Source: an uncultured Ramlibacter sp. | Lineage (GTDB): Bacteria > Pseudomonadota > Gammaproteobacteria > Burkholderiales > Burkholderiaceae_C | Reading direction: 5' to 3' | DNA length: 64,000 nt | Assembly (NCBI RefSeq): GCF_936925435.1 | Contig: NZ_CAKZHQ010000045.1 | Location: 1-64,000 of the forward strand | Shown here: piece after piece, positions 12,223 through 60,563 of the stretch | Position numbering within the stretch: the first letter of the stretch is position 1 | Layout of the letters: each line of letters begins with the position of its first letter | The notes under the pieces: model-generated | Seen by the model: only the letters and a program-made list of their open reading frames with translations | Database searches by the model: none | What the model was told of the DNA's origin: nothing | Position numbers and translations under genes: made by a program

Positions 12223-12228
12223 TACAAT
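12223..12228 (+). promoter_or_regulatory. Candidate -10 box for a leaderless leuS mRNA
   Basis: TACAAT ends 6 nt before the leuS ATG, and no Shine-Dalgarno sequence is present. Transcription starting 6-7 nt after the box would begin at the A of ATG. The same layout occurs before at least ten other genes in this window. Confidence 0.5.
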
Positions 12229-12234
12229 TTGCCC

Positions 12235-14874
12235 ATGCAAGACAAGTACAACCACATCGAGGTCGAAAAGGCCGCCCAGGCGCATTGGACCGCCCGCGAC
12301 GCCTACCGCGTGACCGAGGACGCCAACAAGAAGAAGTTCTACGCCTGTTCCATGCTGCCTTATCCCAGCGGCAAGCTGCACATGGGTCACGTGCGCAACT
12401 ACACCATCAACGACATGCTCACGCGCTACCTGCGCATGAACGGCTACAACGTGCTGATGCCGATGGGATGGGACGCCTTCGGCCTGCCGGCCGAGAACGC
12501 CGCGCTCAAGAACGGCGTGCCGCCGGCCAAGTGGACGTACGAGAACATCGCCTACATGAAGAAGCAGATGCAGGCGATGGGGCTGGCCGTCGACTGGTCG
12601 CGCGAGATCGCCACCTGCGACCCCAGCTACTACAAATGGAACCAGTGGCTGTTCCTGAAGATGCTGGAAAAAGGCATCGCCTACCGCAAGACCCAGGTCG
12701 TCAACTGGGACCCGGTCGACCAGACCGTGCTGGCCAACGAGCAGGTCATCGACGGCAAGGGCTGGCGCACCGGCGCGGTGGTGGAAAAGCGCGAGATCCC
12801 CGGCTACTACCTGAAGATCACCGACTACGCCGAAGAACTGCTGGACCATGTGCAGCACAAGCTGCCCGGCTGGCCCGAGCGGGTCAAGCTGATGCAGGAG
12901 AACTGGATCGGCAAGAGCGAGGGCCTGCGCTTTGCGTTCCCCCACGCCATCCGCGGCGCTGACGGTGCACTGATCGGCGACGGCCGCATGTATGTCTTCA
13001 CCACCCGTGCTGACACCATCATGGGCGTGACCTTCTGCGCGGTGGCGCCCGAGCATCCGCTTGCCAGCCACGCGGCGGCAGGCAATCCGGCGCTGGCGGC
13101 CTTCATCGAAGAGTGCAAGAGCGGCGGCACGACCGAGGCCGAACTGGCGCTCAAGGACAAGGTCGGCATGGACACCGGCCTGGTGGTGACGCACCCGCTG
13201 ACCGGCGATGATGTGCCGGTCTGGGTCGGCAACTACGTGCTCATGAGCTACGGCGACGGCGCGGTGATGGGCGTGCCCGGTCACGATGAGCGCGATTTCG
13301 CCTTCGCCATGAAGTACAAGCTGCCCATCATGCAGGTGGTGCACGTGGACGGCGAGCATTACGACTACACGCAGTGGCACGACTGGTACGGCGACAAGGT
13401 CAACGGCGTGACCATCAACTCCGACATCTACAGCGGCTTTGGCTACCAGGAGGCGGTCAACGCCGTGGCGCACACGCTGGAGCAAAAGGGCCTGGGTGGC
13501 AAGAAGACCACCTGGCGGCTGCGCGACTGGGGCGTCAGCCGCCAGCGCTACTGGGGCACGCCCATCCCCATCATCCACTGCGCCGAGCACGGCGCAGTGC
13601 CGGTGCCCGAAAAAGACCTGCCGGTGGTGCTGCCGCTGGACTGCGTGCCCGATGGCTCGGGCAACCCGCTGAACAAGCGCGAGGACTTCCTGGCTTGCCA
13701 GTGCCCGGTTTGCGGCAAGCCGGCCCGGCGCGAGACCGACACCATGGACACCTTTGTCGACTCGTCCTGGTATTTCATGCGCTACTGCGACCCGCAGAAC
13801 AGCCAGGCCATGGTGGACCAGGGCGCGCACTACTGGGCGCCGATGGACCAGTACATCGGCGGCATCGAGCACGCCATCCTGCACCTGCTGTACGCGCGCT
13901 TCTGGACCAAGGTGATGCGCGACATGGGCCTGGTCAAGGTCGACGAGCCCTTCACCAAGCTGCTCACGCAGGGCATGGTGCTCAACGAGGCCTTCTCGCG
14001 CACCACCACCGGCAAGCAGTACTTCTGGGCCCATGAGCTGGACATCGTGCGCGACGAGCACGCCAAGGTGCTGTCGGCCACCGCCAAGGCGGACGGCCAG
14101 GCCGTCACCTACGAGGGCTGGACGACGATGTCCAAGTCCAAGAACAACGGTGTCGACCCGCAGGACCTGATCGAGAAGTACGGCGCCGACACCTCGCGCC
14201 TGTACACCATGTTCACCGCGCCGCCCGAGGCCACGCTGGAGTGGAACGACGCCGCGCTGGAGGGCTCGTACCGTTTCCTGCGCCGCGTCTGGAACTTCGG
14301 TCACAAGCTGTCTGCTATGGATTCGATAGCTACCCGCGGACAATCTGCGGGCTCTGGCACTGCATTTGGCAAACAGGCCAAGGCCTTGCGGCTGGAGATC
14401 CACAGCGTGTTCAAGCAGGTCGACTACGACTACCAGCGCATGCAGTACAACACCGTCGTCTCCGGCGCGATGAAGCTGCTCAATGCGTTGGAGGACTTCA
14501 AGGGCGCGGCCGACGCCGGCGGCCAGGAGGCGATGGCCGAGGGCTTTGCCATCCTGCTGCGCGTGCTCTACCCGGCCACGCCGCACATCGCACAGGCGCT
14601 TTGGCAGGACCTGGGCTGGGCCGCGGCGCGCGGCGAGCTGATCGACGCGCCCTGGCCGCAAGTGGATGCCGAAGCCCTCAAGCAGGACGAGATCGAGCTG
14701 ATGCTCCAGGTCAACGGCAAGCTGCGCGGCGCGGTCACCGTGCCGGCCGGCGCCAGCAAGGAAGAGATCGAGAAGCTGGCCCTGGCCAGCGAGGCCTTTG
14801 CCCTGCATGCCGGCGGCGCCGCGCCCAAGAAGGTGATCGTGGTGCCTGGCCGCCTGGTCAACGTGGTGGTCTAG
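12235..14874 (+). CDS. leuS: Leucyl-tRNA synthetase
   Basis: This 879-residue class I synthetase charges tRNA-Leu. The HIGH-type motif HMGH is at residues 49-52, and the editing domain lies in the middle ([21 protein letters not shown] and [12 protein letters not shown]). The KMSKS loop is MSKSKNN from residue 632. The C-terminal [12 protein letters not shown] domain is present. I took the ATG at 12235 ([14 protein letters not shown]) over an in-frame GTG seven codons upstream. Residues about 693-709 ([17 protein letters not shown]), between the catalytic and anticodon domains, look foreign. They are encoded by a hairpin repeat at 14314-14358. Confidence 0.95.
14314..14358. repeat. Hairpin repeat inserted in frame in leuS
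   Basis: The first hairpin is GCTAT-GGATTCG-ATAGC (14314-14330). A second inverted repeat follows, CCCGC (14333-14337) with GCGGG (14347-14351), then CTCTGGC. It encodes a low-complexity Ser/Ala/Gly/Thr stretch, consistent with an element that entered without breaking the frame. Confidence 0.65.
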
Positions 14875-14878
14875 AAAG

Positions 14879-15379
14879 ATGGCACCCACCAGCTTCCTGT
14901 CGCGCCGCCGCCTGCTGCTGCTGGCCGCACCCGCCGCCCTGGCGGCCTGCGGCTTCGAGCTGCGCAAAGCGCCCAACTTCGCTTTCAGCACCGTCTACGT
15001 CGGCGGCGCCGAGTCGCCCCTGCTGACCGAACTGCGGCGCAGCATTGCCGCCAGCGGCGCCGTGCAGGTGGTGCCGGTCGAACGGGCCCAGGTCATCCTG
15101 GACGTGCCGCTGGACCAGCGCGAGAAGGTGGTGGTGGCCCTGAACTCCACCGGCCAGGTGCGCGAGTTCCAACTGCGCACGCGCGTCAAGTTCCGCCTGC
15201 GCACGGCGCAGGGCAAGGAGCTCATCCCCGAAACCGAGCTGCTGCAGCAGCGCGACATCAGCTTCAACGAGTCGGCGGTGCTGGCCAAGGAAGGCGAAGA
15301 GAACCTGCTGTACCGCGACATGCAGACCGACATCGTGCAGCAGCTGATGCGCCGGCTGGCGGCGATCAAGGCCTTGTAG
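14879..15379 (+). CDS. lptE: LPS-assembly lipoprotein LptE
   Basis: This 166-residue outer-membrane lipoprotein plugs the LptD barrel and assists lipopolysaccharide insertion. The signal peptide (SRRRLLLLAAPAALAAC) ends in the lipobox LAAC, and the mature start CGFELR is typical of LptE. The conserved C-terminal part contains LLYRDMQTDIVQQLMRRL. It starts 4 nt after the leuS stop. The order leuS-lptE-holA is conserved in proteobacteria. Confidence 0.92.
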   Translation: MAPTSFLSRRRLLLLAAPAALAACGFELRKAPNFAFSTVYVGGAESPLLTELRRSIAASGAVQVVPVERAQVILDVPLDQREKVVVALNSTGQVREFQLRTRVKFRLRTAQGKELIPETELLQQRDISFNESAVLAKEGEENLLYRDMQTDIVQQLMRRLAAIKAL

Positions 15380-15386
15380 CCGCACC

Positions 15387-16457
15387 ATGCAGCTTGCCGC
15401 CGGCCAACTCGCAGCGCACCTGCAAAAGGGGCTCAAATCCCTGTACACCCTGCACGGCGACGAGCCGCTGCTGGTGCAGGAGGCGGCCGACGCCATCCGG
15501 GCCGCGGCGCGCACCCAGGGCTACACCGAGCGCACAGTGCACACGGTCGCAGGTGCCCACTTCGACTGGAGCGAGGTGCTGGCCGCCGGCGGCTCGCTCA
15601 GCCTGTTTGCCGACAAGCAGATTGTCGAGATCCGCGTCCCCTCGGGCAAGCCCGGCAAGGAAGGCAGCCCGGCCCTGCAGCAGCTGGCCGAGGCCGCGCA
15701 GGGCAACGACACGACCCTGACCCTGGTGCTGCTGCCGCGCCTGGACAAGATGACGCGCAGCGGCGCCTGGTTCGGCGCGCTCGAGAGCTTCGGCGTGACG
15801 CTGCAGTTCGACCCGGTGGACCGCGCGGCGCTGCCGCAATGGATTGCCCAGCGGCTGGCGCGTCAGGGCCAGCGCGTGGCCTCCGGCGAGGAGGGGCAGC
15901 GCACGCTGCAGTTTTTTGCCGACCGGGTCGAGGGCAACCTGCTGGCGGCCCACCAGGAGATCCAGAAGCTGGCCCTGCTGCACCCTGAGGGCGAGCTGGG
16001 TTTCGACCAGGTCGAAGGCGCGGTGCTCAACGTGGCGCGCTACGACGTCTTCAAGCTGTCCGAGGCGGTGCTGGGCGGCCAGGCCGCGCGGGTGCAGCGC
16101 ATGCTCGACGGCCTGCAGGCCGAGGGCGAGGCCGAGGTGCTGGTGCACTACACGCTGGCCGAGGACATTCGCGCGCTCAAGCGCGTCAAGGACGCCATGG
16201 CGGCCGGCCGGCCGCTGCCCATGGCGCTGCGCGAGCAGCGCGTCTGGGGCATCAAGGAGCGGCTGTTCGAGCGGGTGCTGCCGCGCCTGACGGCCACCGG
16301 CCTGGACAATCTGCTGCACTCGGCCCACCTGGTCGACGGCATCGTCAAGGGCCTGAAGGCGCCGGGCTGGCCCAGCGACGGCTGGCAGGCCCTGCACCGC
16401 CTGGCCCAGGGGCTTTGCCAGGAGTGCGCGCCGCAAAGCGCCCCCGTGCGAAAATAG
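15387..16457 (+). CDS. holA: DNA polymerase III subunit delta
   Basis: This 356-residue clamp-loader subunit opens the beta sliding clamp. The N-terminal AAA+-like domain begins [22 protein letters not shown], with a clamp-binding region near [20 protein letters not shown]. The collar helices at the C-terminus contain the [15 protein letters not shown] segment. It lies 7 nt after lptE and 4 nt before proA, so it is probably cotranscribed with its neighbours. Confidence 0.93.
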
Positions 16458-16461
16458 GGCC

Positions 16462-17742
16462 ATGAACGCTCTCAACGTCGCAGAGTACATCCAGACCCTG
16501 GGTTTGCAGGCAAAACAAGCCTCGGCCCCCATGGCGGCTGCCTCGAGCGCTACGAAAAATGTAGCGCTGAAGGCGCTGGCGCGGCTCCTGCGCGAGAACG
16601 CCCAGGCCTTGCAGGCCGACAACGGCAGGGACATCGAGCGGGCCACGGCCGCCGGCCTGAGCGCGCCCATGGTCGACCGGCTCAAGCTCACGCCCAAGGT
16701 GCTAGAGACCGTGGCCCAGGGCTGCGAGCAGCTGGCCGCGATGCCGGACATCATCGGCGAGATCATCGGCATGAAGCAGCAGCCCAGCGGCATCCGCGTG
16801 GGGCAAATGAGGGTGCCGATCGGCGTCTTCGGCATGGTCTTCGAGAGCCGGCCCAATGTCACCATCGAGGCGGCCAGCCTGTCGATCAAGAGCGGCAATG
16901 CCTGCATCCTGCGCGGCGGCTCCGAGGCCATCGAGTCCAACAAGGCCCTGGCCCGGCTGGTGCAGCAGGCGCTGGCCGAGGCCGGCCTGCCGGTCGAGGC
17001 GGTGCAGCTGGTGCAGACCACCGACCGTGAAGCTGTCGGCCAGCTGATCGCCATGCCGCAGTATGTGGACGTGATCATCCCGCGCGGCGGCAAGAGCCTG
17101 ATCGAGCGCATCAGCCGCGAGGCCAAGGTGCCGGTGATCAAGCACCTGGACGGCAACTGCCACGTCTACGTCGACGATCCCTGCGACATCGCCATGGCGG
17201 TGGCCATCGCCGACAACGCCAAGACCCAGAAGTACAGCCCCTGCAACGCCAGCGAAGGCCTGCTGGTGGCGCGCGGCGCGGCGGCGCAGTTCCTGCCGCT
17301 GATCGGCGCCATCTATGCCGCCAAGGGCGTGGAGATGCGCTGCGACGCCCAGGCCCAGGCCATCCTGCAGGCTGTGCGCGGCGCCAATCTGAAAGAAGCG
17401 ACCGAGCAGGACTGGTCCGAGGAATACCTGGCGCCCATCATCAGCGTCAAAGTGGTGGAGGGCGTCGACGAGGCCATCGCCCACATCAACCGCTATTCCA
17501 GCCACCACACGGATGCCATCGTCACGCGCGACCACGTCCATGCCCAGCGCTTCCTGCGCGAGGTGGATTCGGCCAGCGTGATGGTCAACGCCAGCACCCG
17601 CTTCGCCGATGGCTTCGAGTTCGGCCTGGGTGCCGAAATCGGCATCAGCACCGACAAATTCCATGCCCGCGGCCCGGTGGGCATCGAAGGCCTGACCTCC
17701 CTGAAGTGGGTGGTGCTGGGCCAGGGCGAAGTGCGCGGCTGA
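16462..17742 (+). CDS. proA: Glutamate-5-semialdehyde dehydrogenase (gamma-glutamyl phosphate reductase)
   Basis: This 426-residue NADPH-dependent enzyme is the second step of proline synthesis. The catalytic Cys is C261 in [10 protein letters not shown]. Other family motifs are [22 protein letters not shown] and [12 protein letters not shown]. The ATG is preceded by GAAAAT at 16450-16455 with a 6-nt gap, another candidate leaderless start. Residues about 28-36 are encoded by a perfect 8-bp-armed hairpin (16546-16568). The pathway partner proC is at 45.8 kb; proB is not in the window. Confidence 0.95.
16546..16568. repeat. Hairpin repeat inside the proA 5' end
   Basis: Arms AGCGCTAC (16546-16553) and GTAGCGCT (16561-16568) enclose the 7-nt spacer GAAAAAT. 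The core GCTAC-N7-GTAGC matches the architecture of the other copies in the window. Confidence 0.55.
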
Positions 17743-17767
17743 AAGCGCGGCTTCCCCAATTTCTTCC

Positions 17768-18781
17768 ATGCACGATTACTGGCCCGGCTGCGGCTACAGC
17801 CTCCTGCAAGCCGGTGCCGACGGCCAGCTGCGTGTCACCGACGATTTCCTGCGCAGCCTGCTGCAGCGCCCGGAACTGGCGCCGGCGCCCGAGTCCTGCC
17901 CGGCCGAACTGGGCTTGCACGAGCAGCTGCTGCGCGATCCGCGCCAGCCCATCGACGCCGTGGCGCTGGCCGGCTTGCGCGACGAGGACGCCCGCGCCAA
18001 CTACGCCGTCTGGCTGCGCTTTCGCGCCCGCCTGCTGGCCCAGCCCACGCTGGAGGGCAGCTACCTGGCGCTGTTCCACGGCGATGTCGACGTGCCGCCG
18101 GTCCTGGTGCACCAGCTGACCCAGATCCTGCTGCGCCATGTGCTGGGCGCGGAAGCGGCGCCATTGCAGGCGCGCGTGGCCGAGATGCTGTTCCGCCCGC
18201 AGAAGATCTCCATCCTGGAGCAGGGCCAGGTGATGGCGGCCGACGACGAGACGGTGGAGCGCCACGCCATCGCCGGCAGCTTCGGCACGTTGGGCGAGCT
18301 GCTGGCGCAAGGTGGGGCCGTGCTGCGCACCGCCGAACTCGACGTCCTCAACGAGGACAACGCCGACCAGTACTGGGAGCGCAGCGAGGCCCATGACCTG
18401 GTGGTCAGCCTGAACCACGGCCAGAGCGCCCTGGAGGCGCTGTGCCGGGTGCTGGAGCGCTGGGTCCGGCACTTCCTGGGGGCCGAGGTGGCCATCACGG
18501 TGGAGCGCGAGATCGACGACGAACACTGGGTCTGGCATGTCGGCCTGGACGCGCAGGCCAGCGCCGTGCTCAATGCGCTCTACCAGGGCCAGGACGTGGA
18601 CGAGGCCCAGATGGCGCGCATGCTGTGCCTGTTCCGGCTGGAGTTCACCCACAGCGGCGTCATGCGACCGGAGATCGCCGGCAAGCCGGTCTACCTGGCG
18701 ATGGCCATGGATGCCGACAAACGCCTCAAGCTCAAGCCGCAGAACCTGCTGCTGAATCTGCCGCTGGCGCAGCAGTCCTGA
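17768..18781 (+). CDS. Conserved protein of unknown function (337 aa, DUF6352-like)
   Basis: The protein looks soluble, with no signal peptide or membrane segment. It begins HDYWPGCGYSLLQ and has a conserved-looking middle (DVDVPPVLVHQLTQILLRHVLG; NADQYWERSEAHDLVV) and a C-terminal domain with WVRHFLGAEVAITVEREID. I associate this layout with a Burkholderiales family named DUF6352, but that assignment is from memory and unverified. No catalytic motif is evident. It sits between proA and gshA on the same strand, a conserved neighbourhood, with no clear operon signal. Confidence 0.8.
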   Translation: MHDYWPGCGYSLLQAGADGQLRVTDDFLRSLLQRPELAPAPESCPAELGLHEQLLRDPRQPIDAVALAGLRDEDARANYAVWLRFRARLLAQPTLEGSYLALFHGDVDVPPVLVHQLTQILLRHVLGAEAAPLQARVAEMLFRPQKISILEQGQVMAADDETVERHAIAGSFGTLGELLAQGGAVLRTAELDVLNEDNADQYWERSEAHDLVVSLNHGQSALEALCRVLERWVRHFLGAEVAITVEREIDDEHWVWHVGLDAQASAVLNALYQGQDVDEAQMARMLCLFRLEFTHSGVMRPEIAGKPVYLAMAMDADKRLKLKPQNLLLNLPLAQQS

Positions 18782-29437: not shown

Positions 29438-29472
29438 GGGCTTTTGCAGGCCGTGTTGCTACAGTGCGGCCG

Positions 29473-31503: not shown

Positions 31504-31515
31504 CAAAATCCCCCC

Positions 31516-34467: not shown

Positions 34468-35931
34468 TCATTGTCCCGCGGCCGGGCGCTGCGGTCGCAG
34501 CTGCCAGGCCGCCACGATCGCCAGGCAGCACAGCGCGGCGAGGAAGAAAAAGGATTCGTTGAAGGCCGCCAGCCGCGCCGGACTGGTGTCCGGGTTGGCC
34601 AGCGAGTCGCCGTGCACCGCGAGTCGCCACTCCAGCACGATGCCGCACAGGCTGACGCCGGCCGCGCCGCCGAGCATGCGCAGGAAGCTGATGGCGCTGG
34701 CGCCGAAGGGCACCAGGTCCTTGTCCAGCGAGCGCAGCGCGCCCAGGTTGAGCGAGGGCAGGATGAAGCCCAGGCCGATGCGGCCCAGCACGGCCCAGGC
34801 CACCAGCAGGCCCAGCGACGCCGACAGCCCCACGGTCGGCATCAGCGCAAACGAAGCTGCCAGAAGCACCAGGCCGGTGGTCACCAGCACATAGGTCGGT
34901 ACGCGGTTCGTCATCCGCGCCACGCCGGGGATGGTGAAAGCCAGCACCAGGCCGGCCGGCAGCAAGATGGTGCCCACGTGCGAGGCCGACAGCTTGAGGC
35001 CCAGCAGCATGTAGACCGGCAGCAGATAGGTCGAGCCGAACAGCGCCGTGCCATAGATGAAGGAGACGATGCTGCCCATGGCAAAGGTGCGGTGGCCGAA
35101 CAGCTGCAGGTTCATCAGCGGTTCGCGGCCGCTGGAGAGCATGCGCTTTTGCCACCAGATGAAGGTCACCAGGGCGCCGGCCGCCGCCACTAGCAGGGCC
35201 GTGGCCTGCAGCATTGAGTCGCCGTGCAGTTCGACCAGGCCATTGAGCAGGCACAGCGTGCCACCGGCGCCCAGCAGCGCGCCGCGCCAGTCCAGCGCGG
35301 CGCCGCGCTCGGCCGCCTCACCGCCAGGCGCGCTGCTGGGCACGAACTTCAGCGCCAGCCAGATCGCAGTCAGGCAGAAGGGCACGACCATGAAGAAGAT
35401 CGAGCGCCAGCCGAACAAGTCCACCAGCACGCCGCCTATGCTCGGGCCAATGGCCGGCGCCAGCACCACGCCCATGCCGAACAGGCCGCCGGCCTTGCCC
35501 TGCTCGCTGGGTTCGAAGGCCCGCATCATGATGATGGCCGGGATGGGTTGCACCGCGCCGGCCGCCAGGCCCTCGGCCACGCGCGCCGCCAGCACCAGGC
35601 TGAAGTTGTCGGCCAGGCCGCCGGCGATGCCGCCCGCCATCAGCAGCACCATGGTGCCCAGGTAGGTCTTGCGGTAGCCGAAACGCGCCAGCAGCCAGGG
35701 CGTGGTCAGCATGGCCACCGTCATCGCCACCATGAAGCCGGAGCTGACCCACTGCACTCGCTCCTGGCCCAGCACGAAATGCTGGCTCAGTCCCGGGATG
35801 GCGACGTTGATGATGGTCGAGGACATGATGGAGGCCATGGTGCCGACCATCACCGACAGCATCAGCAGCCAGCGGTAGCGCGGGCCGTAGCGCGCGCTCA
35901 GGGCCTGCAGGCTGGAGGAGGGGTCGCTCAC
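34468..35931 (-). CDS. MFS drug:H+ antiporter, DHA2 (EmrB/QacA) type
   Basis: This 487-residue transporter has about fourteen hydrophobic segments. The typical DHA2 N-terminus has MASIMSSTIINVAIPGLSQHF; GFMVAMTVAMLTTPWLLARFG and GMGVVLAPAIGPSIGGVLVD form motif C. The start is a GTG overlapping the stop of the CWC gene (GTGA). No membrane-fusion partner (EmrA) is adjacent, so tripartite efflux is not indicated. The substrate is unknown. Confidence 0.88.
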   Translation of the reverse strand: MSDPSSSLQALSARYGPRYRWLLMLSVMVGTMASIMSSTIINVAIPGLSQHFVLGQERVQWVSSGFMVAMTVAMLTTPWLLARFGYRKTYLGTMVLLMAGGIAGGLADNFSLVLAARVAEGLAAGAVQPIPAIIMMRAFEPSEQGKAGGLFGMGVVLAPAIGPSIGGVLVDLFGWRSIFFMVVPFCLTAIWLALKFVPSSAPGGEAAERGAALDWRGALLGAGGTLCLLNGLVELHGDSMLQATALLVAAAGALVTFIWWQKRMLSSGREPLMNLQLFGHRTFAMGSIVSFIYGTALFGSTYLLPVYMLLGLKLSASHVGTILLPAGLVLAFTIPGVARMTNRVPTYVLVTTGLVLLAASFALMPTVGLSASLGLLVAWAVLGRIGLGFILPSLNLGALRSLDKDLVPFGASAISFLRMLGGAAGVSLCGIVLEWRLAVHGDSLANPDTSPARLAAFNESFFFLAALCCLAIVAAWQLRPQRPAAGQ

Positions 35932-36152
35932 GCGGCCGCCGTCCCGGCCGTGGCGCAGGCCCGGCAGATGCAGGCCAGGCCGCGCGCGGCGCTCGGGATC
36001 TGCAGCAGAACCGCACGCTGAAAATCCACCTGCATGCACCAGCAGGGCGGCTGCTCCTGACCTGTCACGCGCGCCGCCTCCATGGCGCAGCCATTGGCCT
36101 GGCCGCACAGCGGGCAATGGCGCGGGTCGGTGACCGGGGCTGGGGCAGTCAT
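35928..36152 (-). CDS. Cysteine-rich CWC-family small protein
   Basis: This 74-residue protein has eight cysteines (C13, C16, C22, C37, C39, C61, C63, C66) arranged CPLCGQANGC, CWC and CICRAC, matching the CWC family, probably a zinc-binding fold of unknown role. TAAACT (36159-36164) ends 6 nt before the ATG and no ribosome binding site is visible. The downstream MFS gene overlaps it by 4 nt. Confidence 0.8.
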   Translation of the reverse strand: MTAPAPVTDPRHCPLCGQANGCAMEAARVTGQEQPPCWCMQVDFQRAVLLQIPSAARGLACICRACATAGTAAA

Positions 36153-36263
36153 GCGGCCAGTTTAGCCGCGCGTCCAGCGCGCCGGGGTGGCGCGACGGTG
36201 CCGCAGGCCATCCAGGCAGAATGCGGGCGGAACAGCGCAATCCGACAACAGGAGGAGGTCCGC

Positions 36264-38163: not shown

Positions 38164-40378
<2,215 letters not shown>

Positions 40379-40437
40379 GCTTGAGGGCTGGACGAGCCCG
40401 TTCCAAGTGGAAAAGAAAGAGCGGGCAGAATTGTCCC

Positions 40438-43560: not shown

Positions 43561-44037
43561 ATGCCACGCACCGTCCCCCGCCTTGCCGCTTCGTTGCTGT
43601 TCCTGCTGTCCGCAGCCGCGTCGGTCCAGCCGGCGGCTGCCCAGGGTTTCTGGGACCGGCTGTTGGGCCGCAACCCCCAGACGGCGCCCGGCGGCGTCGT
43701 CATCCTGCCGGGGGGCGTGGTCAACACCGGCGCCTACATCCTGGACCGCCGCGACAACCTGCCGCTGGGGCGCAATAACGTCGTGGTTTTTGTCGGCAGC
43801 GGCTGCCCGCTGTGCCTGGGCGCGGTGGAGGATGTGCGCGCAGGGGCCGTTGCCGGCATGGAGGTGATGGACGTTTCAGCCGGCGGTATGGCGCGCGACG
43901 CCTTCAACATGCTGGGCTTGCCCGCCGTGCCGGCAACGGTCGCGGGCAGCCAGATGCTGGTCGGGCGTGATCCCCTCCAGCTGCACGGCGTGCTGGGCCG
44001 CGCCGGTCTGTGGGCGCCCAAGTCCAACGGCCCTTAA
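43561..44037 (+). CDS. Periplasmic thioredoxin/glutaredoxin-like protein with CPLC motif
   Basis: This 158-residue protein has a signal peptide (1-27, ending PAAAQ). The mature part has a strand VVVFVGSGCPLCLGAV with C82 and C85 as a CxxC pair, then DAFNMLGLPAVPATVAG, where P124 sits in the cis-Pro position of a thioredoxin fold. This suggests a small periplasmic disulfide oxidoreductase or integrating-conjugative TrbC/TrsF-like relative; the substrate is unknown. A GGAG site lies before the ATG. Its position between oxyR and a DyP peroxidase is suggestive of oxidative-stress work. Confidence 0.7.
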   Translation: MPRTVPRLAASLLFLLSAAASVQPAAAQGFWDRLLGRNPQTAPGGVVILPGGVVNTGAYILDRRDNLPLGRNNVVVFVGSGCPLCLGAVEDVRAGAVAGMEVMDVSAGGMARDAFNMLGLPAVPATVAGSQMLVGRDPLQLHGVLGRAGLWAPKSNGP

Positions 44038-44047
44038 CATCGGGGGC

Positions 44048-46673: not shown

Positions 46674-46674
46674 G

Positions 46675-46720
46675 CTGCCATTGTCCCCGAGGCGCCGGCA
46701 ATCGGACCGACAATAGGCAG
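46675..46720. promoter_or_regulatory. Inverted repeat in the proC-glpD divergent promoter
   Basis: CTGCCATTGTC (46675-46685) pairs with GACAAT-A-GGCAG (46709-46720), with one unpaired base and a 23-nt centre. Each arm contains a -10-like hexamer. It may be a shared operator or simply back-to-back -10 boxes. Confidence 0.35.
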
Positions 46721-46742
46721 GGCAGCATTCCACACTGATTTG

Positions 46743-48347
46743 ATGACACAACAACAAGAAATTCCAGGGGCTGGCCGGCAGGATCTGCTGGAGCGGCTGG
46801 CACGGCCCGTCACGTATGACGTGGCCATCATTGGCGGCGGCGCCACCGGCCTGGGCGTGGCGCTGGATGCGGCAGCCCGCGGCTTCTCGGTGGTGCTGGT
46901 CGAGTCGCACGACTTTGCCAGCGGCACATCGTCCCGGGCCACCAAGCTGGTTCACGGTGGCGTGCGCTACCTGGCCCAGGGCAATGTGGCCCTGGTGCGC
47001 GAAGCGCTGCACGAGCGCACCACGCTGCTGCACAACGCGCCGCACCTGGCCCAGCCGCTGCCCTTCGTCATGCCTTCCTACAAATTTTGGGAGACGCCGT
47101 TCTACGGCATCGGCCTGAAGCTGTACGACGCGCTGGCAGGCAAGGCCGGCCTGGGCGCCACCGAATTCCTGGGCCGCGAGCGGACTCTGGAATGCCTGCC
47201 GACGGCGCGGCCCGAGGGGCTCAAGGGCGGGGTGAAGTACTGGGACGGCCAGTTCGACGACGCCAGGCTGGCCCTGGCCCTGGCCCGCACGGCAGCGGCC
47301 CGCGGCGCGCTGCTGGTCAATTACTGCCCGGCCACTGGCCTGGTGCACGAAGGCGGCAAGGTGGCCGGCCTGCGCTGCCAGGACAGTGAGAGCGGCCGGA
47401 CCTTTGAATTGAAGGCCCGCTGCGTGATCAACGCTGCCGGCGTCTGGGTGGATGAATTCCGCCAGAAGGACGGCGAGGCCATCGCCCGTCCCGTGCGGCC
47501 CATGGTGGCGCCCAGCCAGGGCGTGCACATCGTGGTCGACCGCGAGTTCCTGCCCGGTGACCACGCCCTGATGGTGCCCAAGACGGCGGACGGCCGCGTG
47601 CTGTTCGGCGTCCCCTGGCTGGGCAAAATCATCCTGGGCACCACGGACACGCCGCGCGGCGATCTGGCGCGCGAACCCCGGCCCTTCAAGGAAGAACTGG
47701 ACTTCATCCTGGGCGAGTCGGCCCGCTACCTGAGTCGGGCGCCGCGTCCCGAGGACATCCGCAGCATCTGGGTGGGCCTGCGCCCCCTGGTCAAGCCGCC
47801 TGACGACGACGGCGAGAACACCAAGGGCCTGAGCCGCGAGCACACCGTCCTGGTCAGCCGTTCCGGCATGGTCACCGTCACCGGCGGCAAATGGACCACC
47901 TACCGGGCCATGGCCGAGGATGTTCTGGAGAAATGCTTCACCAGTCGTCTTCTGGAACGGCATGCTGCGGGAGTGACCACCAACTTGAAGCTGATCGGCA
48001 GCGAACATTTGAGTGGCCAGCCTGGCCCCCTCAGCGCGGCGCAGGGCCTGCATTCCTATGGCAGCGAGGCGGCTGTCGTGGCTGGCCTGCCGGGGGCCGA
48101 CCGCCATCTGGGTGGGGGCCTGACCGAGGCCATGGTCCGGTTTGCTGCCCGTAGCGAGTACGCCCGGACGGTGGAAGACGTCCTGGCCCGGCGCTGCCGG
48201 ATGCTGTTTCTGGACGCCCGGCTGGCCGGCTCGCTGGCAGATGCGGTGGGCGCCATCCTGCGCAAAGAGACTGGCGCCGACCCGCGCGCAGAGGCTTTTG
48301 GCGAGTTGGTCAAGCTGTATTTGGCTTTGCCCGAACAAGGCGCTTGA
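46743..48347 (+). CDS. glpD: Aerobic glycerol-3-phosphate dehydrogenase
   Basis: This 534-residue membrane-associated flavoenzyme oxidises glycerol-3-phosphate to dihydroxyacetone phosphate and reduces ubiquinone. The FAD-binding motif is VAIIGGGATGLG (about 27-38), followed by FASGTSSRATKLVHGGVRYL. The C-terminal domain (about 400-534) is the GlpD C-terminal cap. The ATG at 46743 is preceded by an in-frame TTG that is unlikely to be used. glpK and glpF are not adjacent, so it is an isolated copy. Confidence 0.94.
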   Translation: MTQQQEIPGAGRQDLLERLARPVTYDVAIIGGGATGLGVALDAAARGFSVVLVESHDFASGTSSRATKLVHGGVRYLAQGNVALVREALHERTTLLHNAPHLAQPLPFVMPSYKFWETPFYGIGLKLYDALAGKAGLGATEFLGRERTLECLPTARPEGLKGGVKYWDGQFDDARLALALARTAAARGALLVNYCPATGLVHEGGKVAGLRCQDSESGRTFELKARCVINAAGVWVDEFRQKDGEAIARPVRPMVAPSQGVHIVVDREFLPGDHALMVPKTADGRVLFGVPWLGKIILGTTDTPRGDLAREPRPFKEELDFILGESARYLSRAPRPEDIRSIWVGLRPLVKPPDDDGENTKGLSREHTVLVSRSGMVTVTGGKWTTYRAMAEDVLEKCFTSRLLERHAAGVTTNLKLIGSEHLSGQPGPLSAAQGLHSYGSEAAVVAGLPGADRHLGGGLTEAMVRFAARSEYARTVEDVLARRCRMLFLDARLAGSLADAVGAILRKETGADPRAEAFGELVKLYLALPEQGA

Positions 48348-53952: not shown

Positions 53953-53957
53953 GAGAC

Positions 53958-54176: not shown

Positions 54177-54203
54177 GCGCAAAGAGTTTTAGGAGAACTG
54201 CAA

Positions 54204-54317: not shown

Positions 54318-54340
54318 GCATAGAGTTATAGAGGACGAAC

Positions 54341-54706
54341 ATGGCACGTATCGCTGGCATCAATATTCCGCCGCATCAACACGCCGAGATTGGCCTGACG
54401 GCGATCTTCGGCATCGGCCGCACGCGCGCTCGCAAGATTTGCGAAGCCACGGGCATTCCCTACTCCAAGAAGGTCAAGGACCTGACGGACGGTGACCTCG
54501 AGAAGATTCGCGATCAGATCGCGAACATCACGATCGAGGGTGACCTGCGCCGCGAAACGACCATGAACATCAAGCGTTTGATGGACATTGGTTGCTACCG
54601 TGGTTTCCGCCATCGCCGCGGCCTGCCGATGCGCGGTCAGCGTACGCGCACCAATGCCCGTACCCGCAAGGGTCCGCGCAAGGCCGCTCAGGCCCTCAAG
54701 AAATAA
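54341..54706 (+). CDS. rpsM: 30S ribosomal protein S13
   Basis: This 121-residue protein has the usual start [20 protein letters not shown] and the basic tail [16 protein letters not shown] contacting the P-site tRNA. It is the first gene of the alpha part of the cluster. Confidence 0.97.
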
Positions 54707-54724
54707 CCGGGAAAGAGAATCGTC

Positions 54725-55129
54725 ATGGCAAAAGCTCCCGCCAATAACGCAGCGCAGCGAGTGCGCAAGAAGGTCCGCAAGAACGTGTCCGACGGTGTCG
54801 CTCACGTGCATGCTTCCTTCAACAACACCATCATCACGATCACCGACCGCCAGGGCAACGCCCTGTCGTGGGCATCTTCGGGTGGCCAGGGTTTCAAGGG
54901 TTCGCGCAAGTCGACGCCCTTCGCCGCCCAGGTCGCATCTGAAGTCGCCGGTCGTGCTGCCATCGAGCAGGGCATCAAGAATCTCGACGTCGAGATCAAG
55001 GGTCCTGGTCCTGGCCGTGAATCGTCGGTCCGCGCGTTGGCCGCGCTGGGCATCCGCATCAATTCGATCGCTGATGTCACGCCCGTGCCGCACAACGGCT
55101 GCCGCCCGCAAAAACGTCGTCGGATCTGA
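54725..55129 (+). CDS. rpsK: 30S ribosomal protein S11
   Basis: This 134-residue protein forms part of the platform near the mRNA exit. [20 protein letters not shown] and the C-terminal [13 protein letters not shown] are diagnostic. A gap of 117 nt with no gene follows before rpsD. Confidence 0.97.
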
Positions 55130-55246
55130 TCGCGACCGCGATCAGAGTCGGTTGACCTGATTTCTAACCAAGCCCACCGCCGCCACCCCCTCAGGGCGAC
55201 GGCTCCCGCAGCAACAGGCTGCGGCAGATGATGTAAAGGAAACAAA

Positions 55247-55870
55247 GTGGCACGCTACCTCGGCCCCAAGGCCAAACTCTCCCGCCGTGAAGGCACGGAC
55301 CTGTTCCTCAAGAGCGCACGTCGCTCGATTGCGGACAAGTCCAAGTTCGACTCCAAGCCCGGCCAGCATGGCCGTACTTCGGGCCAACGTACTTCCGACT
55401 TCGGCCTGCAGCTGCGCGAAAAGCAGAAGGTCAAGCGCATGTACGGCATCCTGGAGCGCCAGTTCCGCCGCTACTTCGAAGAAGCCGATCGCCGCAAGGG
55501 CAACACCGGCGCCAACCTGCTGTTCATCCTGGAAAGTCGCCTGGACAACGTGGTGTACCGCATGGGTTTCGGCTCCACGCGCGCAGAAGCCCGCCAGCTG
55601 GTATCGCACAAGGCGATCACCGTCAACGGCAACCCCGTGAACATCCCGTCCTACCTGGTCAAGACCGGTGACGTGATTGCCGTTCGCGACAAGTCCAAGA
55701 AGCAGAACCGCATCGTCGAGGCGCTCGAGCTGGCCAAGCAGGTCGGCATCCCGGCCTGGGTGGACGTCAATGCCGACAAGGCCGAAGGCGTCTTCAAGAA
55801 GGTGCCGGATCGCGACGAATTCGCGGCCGACATCAACGAGTCGCTGATCGTCGAACTGTATTCCCGATAA
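55247..55870 (+). CDS. rpsD: 30S ribosomal protein S4
   Basis: This 207-residue 16S assembly initiator has the S4 RNA-binding domain at about 95-160 ([20 protein letters not shown]). The start is a GTG after AAAGGAAAC. It can repress the alpha operon in E. coli; the 117-nt gap upstream and 125-nt gap downstream leave room for control structures. Confidence 0.97.
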
Positions 55871-55995
55871 GCAGACGATACGTGCCTGCTTTGCTGGCCC
55901 GTACCTGATTTTTCCGTTCCCTGCCGGCATCCCGGCCGGGCACTTCACCAGCCTTACCGGTGTAACGAGCCGGGGGTATTGAGAGGAAGTCCTGC

Positions 55996-56985
55996 ATGCA
56001 AACCAACCTGCTGAAACCCAAAGCCATCAATGTGGAACAGCTTGGTACGAACCGTGCCAAGGTGACGCTGGAGCCGTTCGAGCGTGGTTACGGCCATACG
56101 CTGGGCAATGCCCTGCGCCGCGTTCTGCTGTCCTCGATGGTGGGTTATTCCGCAACCGAAGTCACGATCGCCGGTGTTCTGCACGAGTACTCGTCGATCG
56201 ACGGTGTCCAGGAAGACGTCGTCAGCATCCTGCTGAACCTCAAGGGCGTTGTGTTCAAGCTGCACAACCGCGATGAAGTCACGCTGAGCCTGCGCAAGGA
56301 CGGCGAAGGCGTTGTCACGGCCGCCGACATCCAGACGCCGCACGACGTCGAGATCATCAACCCCGACCACGTGATCGCCCATCTGTCGCAAGGCGGCAAG
56401 ATCGACATGCAGATCAAGGTCGAAAAGGGCCGCGGTTATGTGCCGGGCACGATGCGCCGCTACGCCGATGAGCCGACCAAGTCGATTGGCCGCATCGTGC
56501 TGGACGCTTCGTTCTCGCCGGTCAAGCGCGTCAGCTACACCGTCGAAAGCGCCCGTGTCGAGCAGCGCACCGATCTGGACAAGCTGGTTGTCGAGATCGA
56601 GACCAATGGCGCCATCACGGCAGAGGACGCAGTGCGCGCCTCGGCCAAGATTCTGGTGGAACAGCTGGCTGTGTTCGCCCAGCTCGAGGGCAGCGAACTC
56701 GCCGCCTTCGACGCTCCGGTGCAGCGCAGCTCGCAGCAGTTCGATCCGATCCTGCTGCGCCCGGTGGACGAACTCGAACTGACGGTGCGCTCCGCCAACT
56801 GCCTGAAGGCCGAGAACATCTATTACATCGGTGACCTGATCCAGCGCACCGAGAACGAGCTGCTTAAGACCCCGAACCTGGGTCGCAAGTCGCTCAACGA
56901 AATCAAGGAAGTTCTTGCCTCGCGTGGTCTCACGCTCGGCATGAAGCTCGAGAGCTGGCCTCCCGCCGGCCTCGACAAGCGTTAA
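55996..56985 (+). CDS. rpoA: DNA-directed RNA polymerase subunit alpha
   Basis: This 329-residue protein has the N-terminal dimerisation domain ([20 protein letters not shown]) and the C-terminal UP-element/activator-binding domain ([18 protein letters not shown] to [17 protein letters not shown]). An AGGAAG site precedes the ATG. Confidence 0.98.
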
Positions 56986-57048
56986 TCAACATTGGTGAAC
57001 TCGCAGTACCTGACACGGCTGCGTTTTAGATAAGGAAAGGAACACACC

Positions 57049-57441
57049 ATGCGTCACGGCCACGGCCTCCGTAAACTCAACCGCACCAGCGAGCACCGCC
57101 TCGCCATGCTGCGCAACATGATGGTTTCGCTGCTCGATCACGAAGTCATCAAGACCACGGTCCCCAAGGCCAAGGAACTGCGCCGCGTTGTGGAACCCAT
57201 GATCACGCTGGCGAAAGAGCCCACGCTTGCGAACAAGCGCCTGGCATTCAACCGCCTGCGCGATCGCGACATCGTGGTCAAGCTCTTCGCCGAGCTCGGC
57301 CCGCGCTACAAGGCCCGTCCCGGTGGCTACACGCGCATCCTGAAGATGGGCTTCCGCGTTGGTGACAACGCGCCCATGGCCCTGGTCGAGCTGGTGGACC
57401 GGCCCGAAATTCTGGAAACAGATGCTCCTGCTGCGGAATAA
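57049..57441 (+). CDS. rplQ: 50S ribosomal protein L17
   Basis: This 130-residue protein begins [17 protein letters not shown] and includes [20 protein letters not shown]. It is the last protein gene of the cluster. Confidence 0.97.
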
Positions 57442-57456
57442 GCAGTCTGCGTAGCG

Positions 57457-57462
57457 TATAAT
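57457..57462 (+). promoter_or_regulatory. -10 box of tRNA-fMet
   Basis: A consensus TATAAT ends 11 nt before the mature tRNA 5' end. No convincing -35 is seen at 17 bp. Confidence 0.6.
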
Positions 57463-57473
57463 CAAAACACTGA

Positions 57474-57550
<77 letters not shown>

Positions 57551-57577
57551 AATCTTTGAGCGATTTTCGCTCGCGAC

Positions 57578-57608
57578 AACGCCCACAAATTGTGGGCGTT
57601 TTTTTTGG
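57578..57608 (+). terminator. Terminator after tRNA-fMet
   Basis: A stem of about ten pairs (AACGCCCACAA with TTGTGGGCGTT) is followed by eight or more Ts. Confidence 0.92.
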
Positions 57609-58063
57609 CTTTTTTTCGACAAGTGCCGGCAGTCCTGCGGGCTGCGCAGTCGTCGCTGGGCGAACATCAGGCCAGCTTGCTTCAACCGGGATCTTTCCCC
57701 CCAAGGCCCTTCACTGAATTGTTTCGCACGCAACGCGCGGCGACTGCACCCAAGCTGGCCGCTCGCGTCAAGCCTACTCTTGGGCGCGGGGCGGACGGGG
57801 CCTCCCTGGCGCCCATGAGCGCCAGATCTTGATCTTCTCAATCGGCAAGGTGGTGGAGGCTCGGCGCAAGGCTCGGTGCTGCGCCTGTTCGAGGGCGCGG
57901 CCCTCCGAGGCAGTGACGATCCAGGTGCGGCGTAGCTCGAAGGGGCGCGATGGTGAATGCAGATCCCGCGCCCTGCGGTGACCTCGTGTCACAGGGCCGC
58001 TGACTTTCAACAGCCGCGTGGCTGAGCGCGGGCCCGTGTGAGGGCGGATCCGACGGGGGAAAA
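57609..58063. other. Gene-poor gap between two tRNA genes, with a possible coding relic
   Basis: About 455 bases carry no confident gene. On the minus strand, 57774-57992 is open from a GTG to TAG, and its middle (LRRTWIVTASEGRALEQAQH, then RASTTLPIEKIKIWRSW) has mostly G or C in third positions, as expected of real coding DNA here. No ribosome binding site or family is recognised, and the 5' side soon runs into the tRNA-Arg region. It may be a fragment of a lost gene. Confidence 0.35.
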
Positions 58064-58139
58064 TGGTGCGGCTGGCGGGGATCGAACCCACGACCCTTGG
58101 CTTCGGAGGCCAATACTCTATCCACTGAGCTACAGCCGC
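58064..58139 (-). tRNA. tRNA-Arg (anticodon CCG)
   Basis: A 76-nt cloverleaf with encoded CCA, read on the minus strand. Acceptor GCGGCTG pairs with CAGCCGC. The anticodon loop is CTCCGAA within the stem TTGGC/GCCAA, giving CCG for the CGG codon. The T-loop is TTCGATC. A GATAAT -10-like box lies about 20 nt upstream on the same strand. Confidence 0.96.
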
Positions 58140-58205
58140 ATCTTTGCGAGGCGAGCCGCATTATCCCTCATGCGGACAGCGTTCTCTGATGCTCTTGTGC
58201 TCACG

Positions 58206-58233
58206 CGGACAGCCCTCGCCCCCTGGCTATAAT
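58206..58233 (+). promoter_or_regulatory. Promoter of the cytochrome c gene
   Basis: A consensus TATAAT (58228-58233) lies 16 bp after a CGGACA box, with the ATG about 40 nt downstream preceded by TGAGGA. Confidence 0.6.
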
Positions 58234-58274
58234 CTAAGGTTGATTTCCAAGCCCCCGCAATATTTGAGGACGCC

Positions 58275-59144
58275 ATGAGCGACAGCACCCAGGAAGAAGC
58301 CCACACAGGCCCGATCAAGACCCCCAAGCAACTTCTGCTGGCGGTGTTTTTTTCGTTCGTCGTCCCGGTCTTCGCCATCATCGGACTGGTGTTTTACGTC
58401 GTGTCCGACACCAAGCCGGCGGGCAGTGCCCACGAGGCAAGCTATGCCCTGGGCGGCTTGAACACCCAGGATGTGGGCAAGGGCGTGAACGTGCGCATCC
58501 AGAAGGTCGGCACCGTGGAAATCCGCGATGCCAACCGGGCGCTTAAGACCGGTGAAGAGGTGTTCAAGGCCCAGTGCACAACCTGCCATAGCACCGGCGC
58601 CGCCGGCGCTCCCAAACTGGGCGACGCAGCGGCCTGGGCTGCGCGCCTGGGCAGCGGCCTGGAAGCTCTGGTGCACTCGGCTCTCAAGGGCAAGGGCGCC
58701 ATGCCGGCCCAGAGCGGTGGTGATTTCGACGATCTCGAGATTGCGCGCGCTGCTGTCTACATGGCCAACAGTGCAGGCGGCAAGTTTGCCGAACCGCAAC
58801 GCCCCGCCGTTGCCGCCGACGCTTCCGCTGCACCCGCAGCAGCAACGGCAGCTGCTTCGGCGGCCGCAACCCCTGCTGCAGCCCCGGTCGCCGCAGTTGC
58901 CGCAGCCGGTGCCGGCGAGGCGCTTTACAAGCAGGCCTGCGTCGCCTGCCACGCCACTGGTGTGGCCAACGCACCCAAATTCGGCGACAAGGCCGCCTGG
59001 GGCCCGCGCCTGGCCGCTGGTGTGCCGCAGCTGGTGCAGTCTGTCATCAAGGGCAAAGGCGCCATGCCTCCGAAGGGCGGCAGCGCCGCTTCCGACGCTG
59101 ACGTGCACGCAGCGGTGGACTACATGGTCAAGGCCGTCAAGTAA
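58275..59144 (+). CDS. Membrane-anchored diheme c-type cytochrome (c5-like domains)
   Basis: This 289-residue protein has a single membrane helix at about 19-43 that anchors it, with two periplasmic cytochrome c domains. Heme motifs are CTTCH (101-105) and CVACH (222-226). Each domain has a likely axial Met in a GKGAMP loop (M143 and M264). An Ala/Pro-rich linker (about 178-213) joins them. The two domains are alike (APKLGDAAAWAARL versus APKFGDKAAWGPRL), indicating internal duplication. It probably shuttles electrons between the bc1 complex and an oxidase. Confidence 0.9.
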   Translation: MSDSTQEEAHTGPIKTPKQLLLAVFFSFVVPVFAIIGLVFYVVSDTKPAGSAHEASYALGGLNTQDVGKGVNVRIQKVGTVEIRDANRALKTGEEVFKAQCTTCHSTGAAGAPKLGDAAAWAARLGSGLEALVHSALKGKGAMPAQSGGDFDDLEIARAAVYMANSAGGKFAEPQRPAVAADASAAPAAATAAASAAATPAAAPVAAVAAAGAGEALYKQACVACHATGVANAPKFGDKAAWGPRLAAGVPQLVQSVIKGKGAMPPKGGSAASDADVHAAVDYMVKAVK

Positions 59145-59164
59145 GAGGCTTCGCCCAGCGCAAG

Positions 59165-59197
59165 AAAAAAGCCGGTCGTTGACCGGCTTTTTCTTTG
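59165..59197. terminator. Bidirectional terminator
   Basis: A 7-bp GC stem GCCGGTC-GTT-GACCGGC flanked by A and T runs serves the cytochrome gene and the convergent gene alike. The convergent gene stops at its edge. Confidence 0.9.
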
Positions 59198-59737
59198 TCA
59201 GGCGCTCGGGGCTGCCTGCCCGGCAATCGGGCTGCGCATGAAGCCAAAGCGCGCCGGCAGCGAGGCCGCAAGCACGTCCTCGGGCGCGGACCACAGGCCC
59301 TGCTCGATGGCCTGCGCCGCCAAGGCCACATCCAGCGTGTGGACAAGGCCAAAGCCGGTGTCCGTCTCCAGATAGAGCAAGCCGTTTTCATCGAGAAGGC
59401 AGCGCTGCACCTGGGCCGGGCGGCCGGTGTGGGAGGTCACGGCAAGGTCCATCTCCAGGCGCCACACCAGGGGCGTGGCTTCCAGTTCCACATACACGCG
59501 CTGCGGCCCGTTCTGGAAGTACCAGCGGCCCTGCGCATCGGCTTCGTAGTTGCGCCCGATGAACTCGATGAGCTTGTCGTGGCGCAGCACCGAGCCACGG
59601 CTGTGCGGGAAAGGCCCGGCGGCCTGGGTGCGGTCGTCACGCATGTACCAGTTGCCGCGCGCATCGAGGCCCAGCCAGCCGTAGCAATCAGGGACGTTGG
59701 GCCACTTGGCGATGGCCTGGCGAACAATGTCATCCAT
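59198..59737 (-). CDS. Conserved protein of unknown function (179 aa)
   Basis: This soluble-looking protein begins MDDIVRQAIAKWPNVPDCYG. It has RGNWYMRDD, a region IGRNYEADAQGRWYFQNGPQ and a C-terminal half with LLDENGLLYLETDTGFGLVH. I recognise it as a family widespread in beta- and gamma-proteobacteria carrying a DUF number (DUF2944 or DUF2946; I cannot confirm which). No catalytic motif is seen. GATAAT (59744-59749) ends 6 nt before the ATG and no ribosome binding site is present. Confidence 0.85.
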   Translation of the reverse strand: MDDIVRQAIAKWPNVPDCYGWLGLDARGNWYMRDDRTQAAGPFPHSRGSVLRHDKLIEFIGRNYEADAQGRWYFQNGPQRVYVELEATPLVWRLEMDLAVTSHTGRPAQVQRCLLDENGLLYLETDTGFGLVHTLDVALAAQAIEQGLWSAPEDVLAASLPARFGFMRSPIAGQAAPSA

Positions 59738-59779
59738 GGCCGGATTATCCGGCGCTGTGCACTGGCACGGGGCTGCCCG

Positions 59780-60538
59780 TCAGCGCAGGAAGGCGTCGTA
59801 GCCTGTCTTGAGAATCAATGCCGACACCACCACGATGAAAGCCACGCGCACGAAAGCCGCCCCGTGCTTGAGCGCCAGATGCGTGCCCAGCAGGCTGCCC
59901 AGCACGTTGGCGACGGCCAGGGACAGCGCATAGTGCCACCACACATGGCCCTTGAGCGCGAAGAGCACCAGGGCCGCCAGATTGGTCGCGGTGTTCAGCA
60001 GCTTGGCGCTGGCCGAGGCATGGAGGAAGTCGTAGCCCAGCCAGCGCACGAACAGAAAGACAAAGAAGCTCCCTGTGCCCGGCCCGAAGAATCCGTCGTA
60101 GAAACCCAGGGCCAGACCGATGCTGCTGGCCGCCAGCACTTCTGCACGGCCGGACAAGCGGGGCATGTGGTGGCGGCCAAGATCCTTGCGCGCCAGGGTG
60201 TAGGCCAGCACGCCCAGCAAGACGACGGGCAGCAGCTTGCGCAGGAATTCGGGGGACACCACGGTCACGGTCCAGGCGCCGGCAAAGGAGCCCAGCAAAC
60301 CGGCCAGTGCGGCCGGCAGCAGTGCACGCCAGTTCAGGTCGACGCGCCGGCTGTATTGCAGGGCCGCGATGGCCGTGCCCCAGATGGAGGCGCTCTTGTT
60401 GATGCCGAACAGGGTGGCCGGATGGGTATTGGGAAAGATCGCGAATAGCGCGGGCACCAGAATCAGGCCGCCGCCACCCACGATCGCATCGACAAATCCG
60501 GCCAGCAGCGAGGCCAGCGACACCAGCAGCAATTCCAT
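59780..60538 (-). CDS. TauE/SafE-family sulfite/organosulfonate transporter
   Basis: This 252-residue inner-membrane protein has about eight hydrophobic segments. Family parts: LAGFVDAIVGGGGLILVPAL at the N-terminus and the mirror motif LGFYDGFFGPGTGSFFVFLF in the second half. It likely exports sulfite, sulfoacetate or a related anion; there are no sulfur genes beside it. GACAAT ends 7 nt before the ATG without a ribosome binding site. Confidence 0.88.
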   Translation of the reverse strand: MELLLVSLASLLAGFVDAIVGGGGLILVPALFAIFPNTHPATLFGINKSASIWGTAIAALQYSRRVDLNWRALLPAALAGLLGSFAGAWTVTVVSPEFLRKLLPVVLLGVLAYTLARKDLGRHHMPRLSGRAEVLAASSIGLALGFYDGFFGPGTGSFFVFLFVRWLGYDFLHASASAKLLNTATNLAALVLFALKGHVWWHYALSLAVANVLGSLLGTHLALKHGAAFVRVAFIVVVSALILKTGYDAFLR

Positions 60539-60563
60539 GGCGTCGATTGTCGCATTCGCGATC

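Follow-up and report, generated by a model that had tools for sequence, protein, structure and literature searches.

Candidate leaderless genes of a Ramlibacter genome carry -10-like hexamers directly before AUG, several of them conserved among the Comamonadaceae

A stretch of 64,000 nt from an uncultured Ramlibacter sp. (contig NZ_CAKZHQ010000045.1, assembly GCF_936925435.1; hereafter the window) contains twelve genes, among them proA, recG, proC, tgt and leuS, for which an initial annotation had proposed that a hexamer resembling a -10 promoter element ends 6 or 7 nt before the ATG. No Shine-Dalgarno (SD) sequence was seen there, and the mRNAs were suggested to be leaderless. All 12 hexamers were confirmed by direct reading of the window, each where the initial annotation had placed it (Table 1); the number of nucleotides between the end of the hexamer and the start-codon ATG is called the gap. 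Taken as a class, these boxes are very probably the -10 elements of ordinary sigma70 promoters that give leaderless mRNAs. The position of the box, the preference for AUG, the gene context and conservation speak for such a class, to which several single members (tgt, leuS, benE) are weakly attached. The window genes that appear best supported as members are proA, recG, the gene of a PF11161 protein and a TauE-family gene.

The genome comprises 4.49 Mb in 57 contigs, of which 862.6 kb (19%), window included, were sampled. Among named relatives, the best matches of its leuS protein are those of Caenimonas sedimenti (86%) and Ramlibacter species (83-84%), so that the organism is probably a Ramlibacter/Caenimonas-like member of the Comamonadaceae. 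A simple codon-usage caller that ignores upstream signals gave 790 genes, 644 of them starting with ATG, and hexamers were scored with an E. coli -10 matrix at a main threshold of at least 2.5. A box at gap 6-7 was found at 58 of the 644 ATG starts, against 11.4 for the mean of two-gap windows at gaps 10-22. Shuffled controls had been proposed as a check; in the sample, shuffling the upstream 25 nt 500 times yielded a mean of 14.2 and a maximum of 28. At gaps 5, 6, 7 and 8 the starts with a box numbered 7, 39, 19 and 10; elsewhere the fraction stayed close to background, except that it rose weakly once more at gap 24-27, which fits ordinary leadered promoters. The excess at gap 6-7 amounted to 6.2-7.8% of ATG genes at thresholds from 0 to 3, and to 4.3% and lower when the threshold was stricter.

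In a pattern scan made without the matrix, SD-like patterns ranked on top and the first clearly different pattern was.A.AAT (34 occurrences, 3.7 expected). In the whole genome BANAAT-N6-ATG occurred 160 times, its N9 version 50 times and its GTG version 40 times; the last two served as controls because the reversed pattern (4 matches) alters the start trinucleotide. When other in-frame ATGs near the start were allowed, 82 of the 790 genes had a box, compared with 14-26 at six control gap pairs, so that about 18 of these 82 candidates are expected by chance. The window itself, with a box in 12 of 65 genes, is not an independent sample, since for four genes the ATG of the initial annotation was adopted manually as the start. 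Among loci of relatives, gaps 6 and 7 had 70 and 22 boxes for 1082 ATG genes, and every other gap between 0 and 40 had 3-27. On the best reading of these counts, about 7-8% of the ATG genes in the sample (roughly 1 in 12 or 13) would belong to the leaderless class.

The peak was specific for ATG starts: a box was present at 58/644 ATG and 2/116 GTG starts (Fisher p 0.004). No peak at gap 6-7 was found at GTG, TTG or CTG candidates near starts, nor at 4741 internal in-frame ATGs (score of at least 3.5). Such a preference for AUG fits leaderless translation; according to the relevant passage of PMC9031893, GUG, UUG and CUG are far poorer for leaderless translation in E. coli, GUG being better in some other bacteria. 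The lack of an SD sequence, claimed for the window genes, holds for the class: the SD core occurred in 5/82 candidates and in 213/569 other ATG genes, a depletion that is partly mechanical, as the box sits where the SD would be.

A same-strand upstream neighbour was rarer for candidates (39/82) than for other ATG genes (422/566). Boxes at gap 6-7 were found at 16/60 divergent genes with spacers below 100 nt (control 1.3) and at 12/124 with longer ones (control 2.2); for co-directional genes the figures were 11/223 below 20 nt (control 2.1), 11/86 at 20-60 nt (control 2.0) and 8/148 beyond (control 3.6). At least one leaderless candidate was present in 14/27 divergent pairs closer than 80 nt and in 22/88 more distant pairs (Fisher p 0.016), with distances taken from the candidates' own ATGs, a possible source of slight bias. 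An excess of divergent pairs with candidates on both sides was considered and found weak (7 of 115, 4.0 expected). The description of the class as housekeeping genes was only partly borne out: it includes DNA polymerase I and a UvrD-type helicase, but also LysR, MarR and two-component regulators. Among the 25 most-matched families listed, the candidates had at least three LysR proteins, three histidine kinases, two response regulators and two MarR proteins, and none of these was among the corresponding families listed for 82 control genes; the counts being small, no enrichment of regulators is claimed.

At called ATGs, the gap 6-7 hexamers were of the form NANAAT in 34 cases, of which 28 began with G or C and 5 with T, and of the form TANNCT in 16; many boxes deviate from TANAAT by a single step. 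In the conserved sets A-11 and T-7 reached 1.8-2.0 bits and most flanking columns less than 1, values that are inflated since boxes were selected by score. These two positions are the bases that sigma70 captures as single strand. G-14 was present in 23/38 boxes without T-12 and in 15/44 with it (p 0.026), as in extended -10 elements, and reached 1.2 bits in the proA box set. As a rule for the class, an extended -10 (TG at -15/-14) was rejected (8/82 candidates, 6/109 controls), and avoidance of T at -12 relative to leadered promoters (5/34 and 7/19, p 0.09) is not claimed. A perfect TTGACA at a spacing of 15-19 was found in 3/82 candidates. With the standard distance between a -10 element and the transcription start site (TSS), a gap of 6-7 sets +1 at or beside the A of AUG. 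RNA polymerase would thus start at, or a few nucleotides from, this A and ribosomes would initiate on the 5'-terminal AUG; at short divergent spacers, two genes may have as few as 25 bp in common, with each -10 directed at the start codon of its own gene.

Conservation of the window boxes was assessed in relatives counted as distinct upstream sequences, a box being accepted if its gap to the chosen ATG was 5-8; kinship keeps the resulting figures from being independent samples. The proA box was present in 40/47 relatives (control mean 1.6), including Variovorax, Hydrogenophaga, Delftia and Rhodoferax. Among the seven proA loci without a box at the chosen ATG, two (L072 and L074) had GATAAT 6 nt before a GTG, one (L093) had a box before another ATG and four had none. 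The recG box was found in 22/28 relatives, the six others all having less than 60% protein identity, the PF11161-gene box in 14/14, and the TauE box in 13/15 at 50% identity or more (13/19 without this cut). The expectation that box positions would be conserved in relatives was thus upheld for these four genes, partially for proC and the DyP peroxidase, weakly for benE, hardly for leuS and not for tgt. The GTG starts of proA in L072 and L074 are possible leaderless GTGs. Before recG, CAGAATTGTCCC (window 40426-40437) forms a -10-like hexamer on both strands, for recG and for queA, and is nearly invariant among the same-genus relatives shown.

Table 1. Positions of the hexamers and genes discussed (window coordinates unless a locus is given)
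Feature	Location	Strand	Hexamer or motif	Gap (nt)	ATG	Remarks
proA	16450..16455	+	GAAAAT	6	16462	strongest window case
recG	40426..40431	+	CAGAAT	6	40438
queA-facing hexamer	40434-40429	-	GACAAT			overlaps recG box
PF11161 protein gene	59744..59749	-	GATAAT	6	59737	Pfam family; function not known
TauE-family gene	60546..60551	-	GACAAT	7	60538	TGC directly before hexamer
proC	46680..46685	-	GACAAT	6	46673
DyP peroxidase	44035..44040	+	TAACAT	7	44048
leuS	12223..12228	+	TACAAT	6	12235
benE	31504..31509	+	CAAAAT	6	31516
tgt	39332..39337	-	GACAAT	7	39324	overlaps queA end
Class-II amidotransferase	34470..34475	-	GACAAT	6	34463	overlaps stop of upstream MFS-like gene
CWC gene	36159..36164	-	TAAACT	6	36152	74-aa Cys_rich_CWC protein, 35928-36152
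Repeat-protein gene	29460..29465	+	TACAGT	7	29473
yceD (PF02620)	L016:15853-16395 (gene)	-	TACACT	6		hexamer faces yceD
maf (PF02545)	L016:16421-17035 (gene)	+	GAGAAT	6		hexamer faces maf
RNase_T exonuclease	L010:15157-15741 (gene)	-				boxed; head to head with M48 protease, 35 nt between ATGs
M48 protease	L010:15777-17036 (gene)	+				boxed; head to head with RNase_T exonuclease
E. coli K-12 yceD promoter	L364:2255-2294		TTGACT-N17-TAATAT-N9-ATG			predicted leader 2-3 nt

Beyond the window, the tightest non-overlapping arrangement among the seven pairs with candidates on both sides was that of yceD and maf, transcribed divergently with 25 nt between their ATGs and two back-to-back hexamers 1 bp apart. 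A survey of the family Comamonadaceae, in which a single genome represented each of 79 other genera, showed the 13-bp core AGTGTAAGAGAAT exactly conserved in 26 of them. In the 27 loci with the exact core, our own included, 24 had the maf ATG at gap 6, and single loci had it at gaps 7, 8 and 2. The ATG of yceD lay at gap 6 in 18, at 7 in seven and at 5 in one, and was not assigned in one. The length of the maf N-terminus varies around this fixed box distance.

For each ortholog all in-frame ATGs close to the aligned start were considered and the best one was counted, with the control handled alike. On this count a box was found for maf in 69/77 loci (two more had no ATG; control mean 4.6) and for yceD in 60 of 68 aligned loci of the 79 (control mean 3.4). 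Where only a single candidate ATG was available, the numbers were 51/58 and 32/39, respectively. For the 67 loci with both N-termini aligned, both boxes were present in 55, only that of yceD in five, only that of maf in six and neither in one: where the core has broken up, each gene often retains its own box. The two genes do not share one hexamer, TACACT and GAGAAT being adjacent and separate. A spacer of 25 bp would have room for one polymerase at a time, so that one bound would exclude the other, and any -35 contact of either promoter would fall within the coding sequence of the neighbour.

Three further genes (orn, M48 and recG) were followed in the 29 best-matching other genomes, of 78 with a match for orn/M48 and recG. 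The RNase_T exonuclease, which we take to be orn, had a box in 28/29 (control mean 1.5; single-candidate-ATG loci 12/12) and its head-to-head neighbour, the M48 protease, in 20/28, one more having no ATG (control mean 2.3; single-candidate-ATG loci 9/15). For recG in other genera the count was 17/23, six more having no ATG (control mean 1.3; single-candidate-ATG loci 5/9). The hexamers were specific to the gene: TACACT in 52/60 yceD boxes, GACAAT in 24/28 for orn, CAGAAT in 11/17 for recG and GANAAT in 62/69 for maf. In seven of the 17 recG boxes of other genera the sequence AATTNT forms a -10-like hexamer on the opposite strand, facing queA; queA itself showed no close box (1/16, control 0.9). 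In the orn/M48 spacer several further bases are kept across genera (ATCGGCGACAAT).

Outside the family, yceD often has another layout. Of 15 yceD loci taken from the order's other families, 10 have TTGAC[AT]-N17/18-TANNNT-N9-ATG at the start, the other five showing no match, and E. coli K-12 has the same arrangement. This layout was present in none of the 68 family yceD loci within the 45 nt examined. In E. coli 198 nt separate the start codons of yceD and maf, and yceD precedes rpmF-plsX-fabH. These data suggest that the ancestral yceD promoter had a strong -35 and gave a leader of 2-3 nt, and that the gene later became leaderless with loss of the -35. A broader proposal, for and against which we find the case evenly poised, is that a fixed set of genes, each with its own -10 hexamer, has remained leaderless throughout the family since its common ancestor. 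Compact pairs such as yceD/maf would then be back-to-back promoters, mutually exclusive, with both mRNAs starting at AUG and -35 contacts in the coding sequence of the neighbour, yceD being derived from a promoter that had a strong -35 and was nearly leaderless.

The hexamers could also belong to promoters with short leaders, transcription starting 2-5 nt before the AUG and not on it. The yceD layout found in other families and in E. coli is of that kind, as are leuS in two close relatives (L071 and L073), which have TACAAT at gap 9, and the M48 boxes, which lie mainly at gap 8 (11/20), corresponding to a leader of 1-2 nt. Most genes, in contrast, have the box at 6-7, where standard spacing sets +1 at or beside the A, and we consider short leaders unlikely for the class. 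A translational role, in which an A/T-rich hexamer would keep the start region of normally leadered mRNAs unstructured or bind S1, is very improbable, even if A/T-rich signals near starts lacking an SD are discussed in a passage of a 2011 survey (PMC3160421). Such an element should not require A-11 and T-7 to stand at a single fixed distance, nor should it favour AUG over GUG, peak at short divergent spacers or point in both directions within the yceD/maf core. That A/T-rich hexamers were merely selected by eye in a GC-rich window is scarcely credible and is refuted for the class by the 58 boxes observed where 11.4-14.2 are expected and by the conservation at proA, recG, maf, yceD and orn. Single boxes may be due to chance: tgt, leuS and benE show no clear conservation, and chance accounts for some 18 of the 82 candidates.

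Several observations weigh against promoters of leaderless mRNAs, the interpretation that we favour. The leuS box was present in only 8/72 relatives, that of tgt in 1/23 and that of benE in 2/8 (2/10 without identity cut); the tgt box is probably chance or recent, and the leuS box, if real, is lineage-specific. Outside the family, a gap 5-8 box near the predicted proA start was found in only two of 15 loci (L214, TAAACT, and L215, TGGAAT, both at gap 6), with a third (L209) having one at an ATG 27 nt inside, and no recG box was seen in six distinct upstream sequences (below 60% identity). The -35 consensus is not enriched on average in the class. AUG is preferred and not obligatory, as the proA GTG starts with GATAAT show, and the small excess at tight co-directional genes implies that some boxes may lie inside operons. 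The -10 matrix and the predicted gene starts are rough. The same caution applies to the mechanical part of the SD depletion, to kinship among relatives and to the use of best-matching genomes for orn, M48 and recG.

A leaderless class in beta-proteobacteria is not new, and the statement in the initial annotation that such mRNAs are little described there was too strong. The passage concerned of the 2011 survey (PMC3160421) gives leaderless genes in 9/71 beta-proteobacterial genomes, with a mean of 6.8% (range 2.8-10.6%), close to the 7-8% estimated here, and, as here, a -10 signal at the SD position. Leaderless transcripts have been mapped by their TSS in Burkholderia cenocepacia J2315 (PMC4603805) and Cupriavidus metallidurans CH34 (PMC7563307). 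The relevant passages of these two reports give 72 primary TSSs (pTSSs) exactly at the start codon and 42 within 10 nt, 24 of these transcripts being tRNAs, and a share of 4.67% of pTSSs; leaderless genes are linked to a TA-rich motif, or the -10 is given as TAnAAT. Their 5' ends were measured, whereas the leaderless genes described here are predicted from sequence. Conservation across genera and head-to-head pairs, considered here, are not treated in those passages, and the ortholog comparison in the cited part of PMC3160421 concerns Actinobacteria; gene-specific hexamers across beta-proteobacterial genera, as found here, do not figure in that part.

Bidirectional promoters of E. coli, as outlined in a passage of PMC12825309, use a shared -10, with TSSs mostly 18 bp apart and in other cases 10 or 23 bp apart, these distances varying slightly. 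Like these, yceD/maf would be transcribed divergently from a few tens of base pairs, over which polymerases can compete; unlike them, it has two hexamers 1 bp apart, predicted TSSs 26 bp apart (just outside that range) and two mRNAs predicted to be leaderless. The recG/queA arrangement may represent a shared -10. No title or displayed abstract on leaderless Comamonadaceae genes or head-to-head leaderless pairs was found in searches of open-licence papers, which leaves their absence unproven; deep conservation and back-to-back pairing of leaderless genes may be new. Should mapped 5' ends bear out the prediction, beta-proteobacteria would offer a conserved set of naturally leaderless genes that includes recG, proA, maf, orn and yceD. 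This would raise the questions of why selection keeps particular genes leaderless, with gene-specific -10 elements, and of how a 25-bp spacer can serve two polymerases; E. coli yceD is also predicted to have a very short leader. Such starts could be misplaced by gene callers that depend on the SD sequence.

For the remaining window genes conservation was partial or could be judged in few relatives. The proC box was present in 7/16 relatives, those inspected reading TAGACT, and that of the DyP peroxidase in 4/14. The amidotransferase box was seen in neither of the two usable relatives, too few to judge, and the CWC and repeat-protein genes had no relatives among the loci fetched. Divergent from proC lies a gene for an FAD oxidoreductase with an alpha-glycerophosphate oxidase C-terminal domain (window 46821-48347); its start had a box in 8/9 relatives, and its predicted start in the window had none. 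Within the spacer of these two genes (window 46674-46820), both starts are faced by boxes in some relatives, for example L160.

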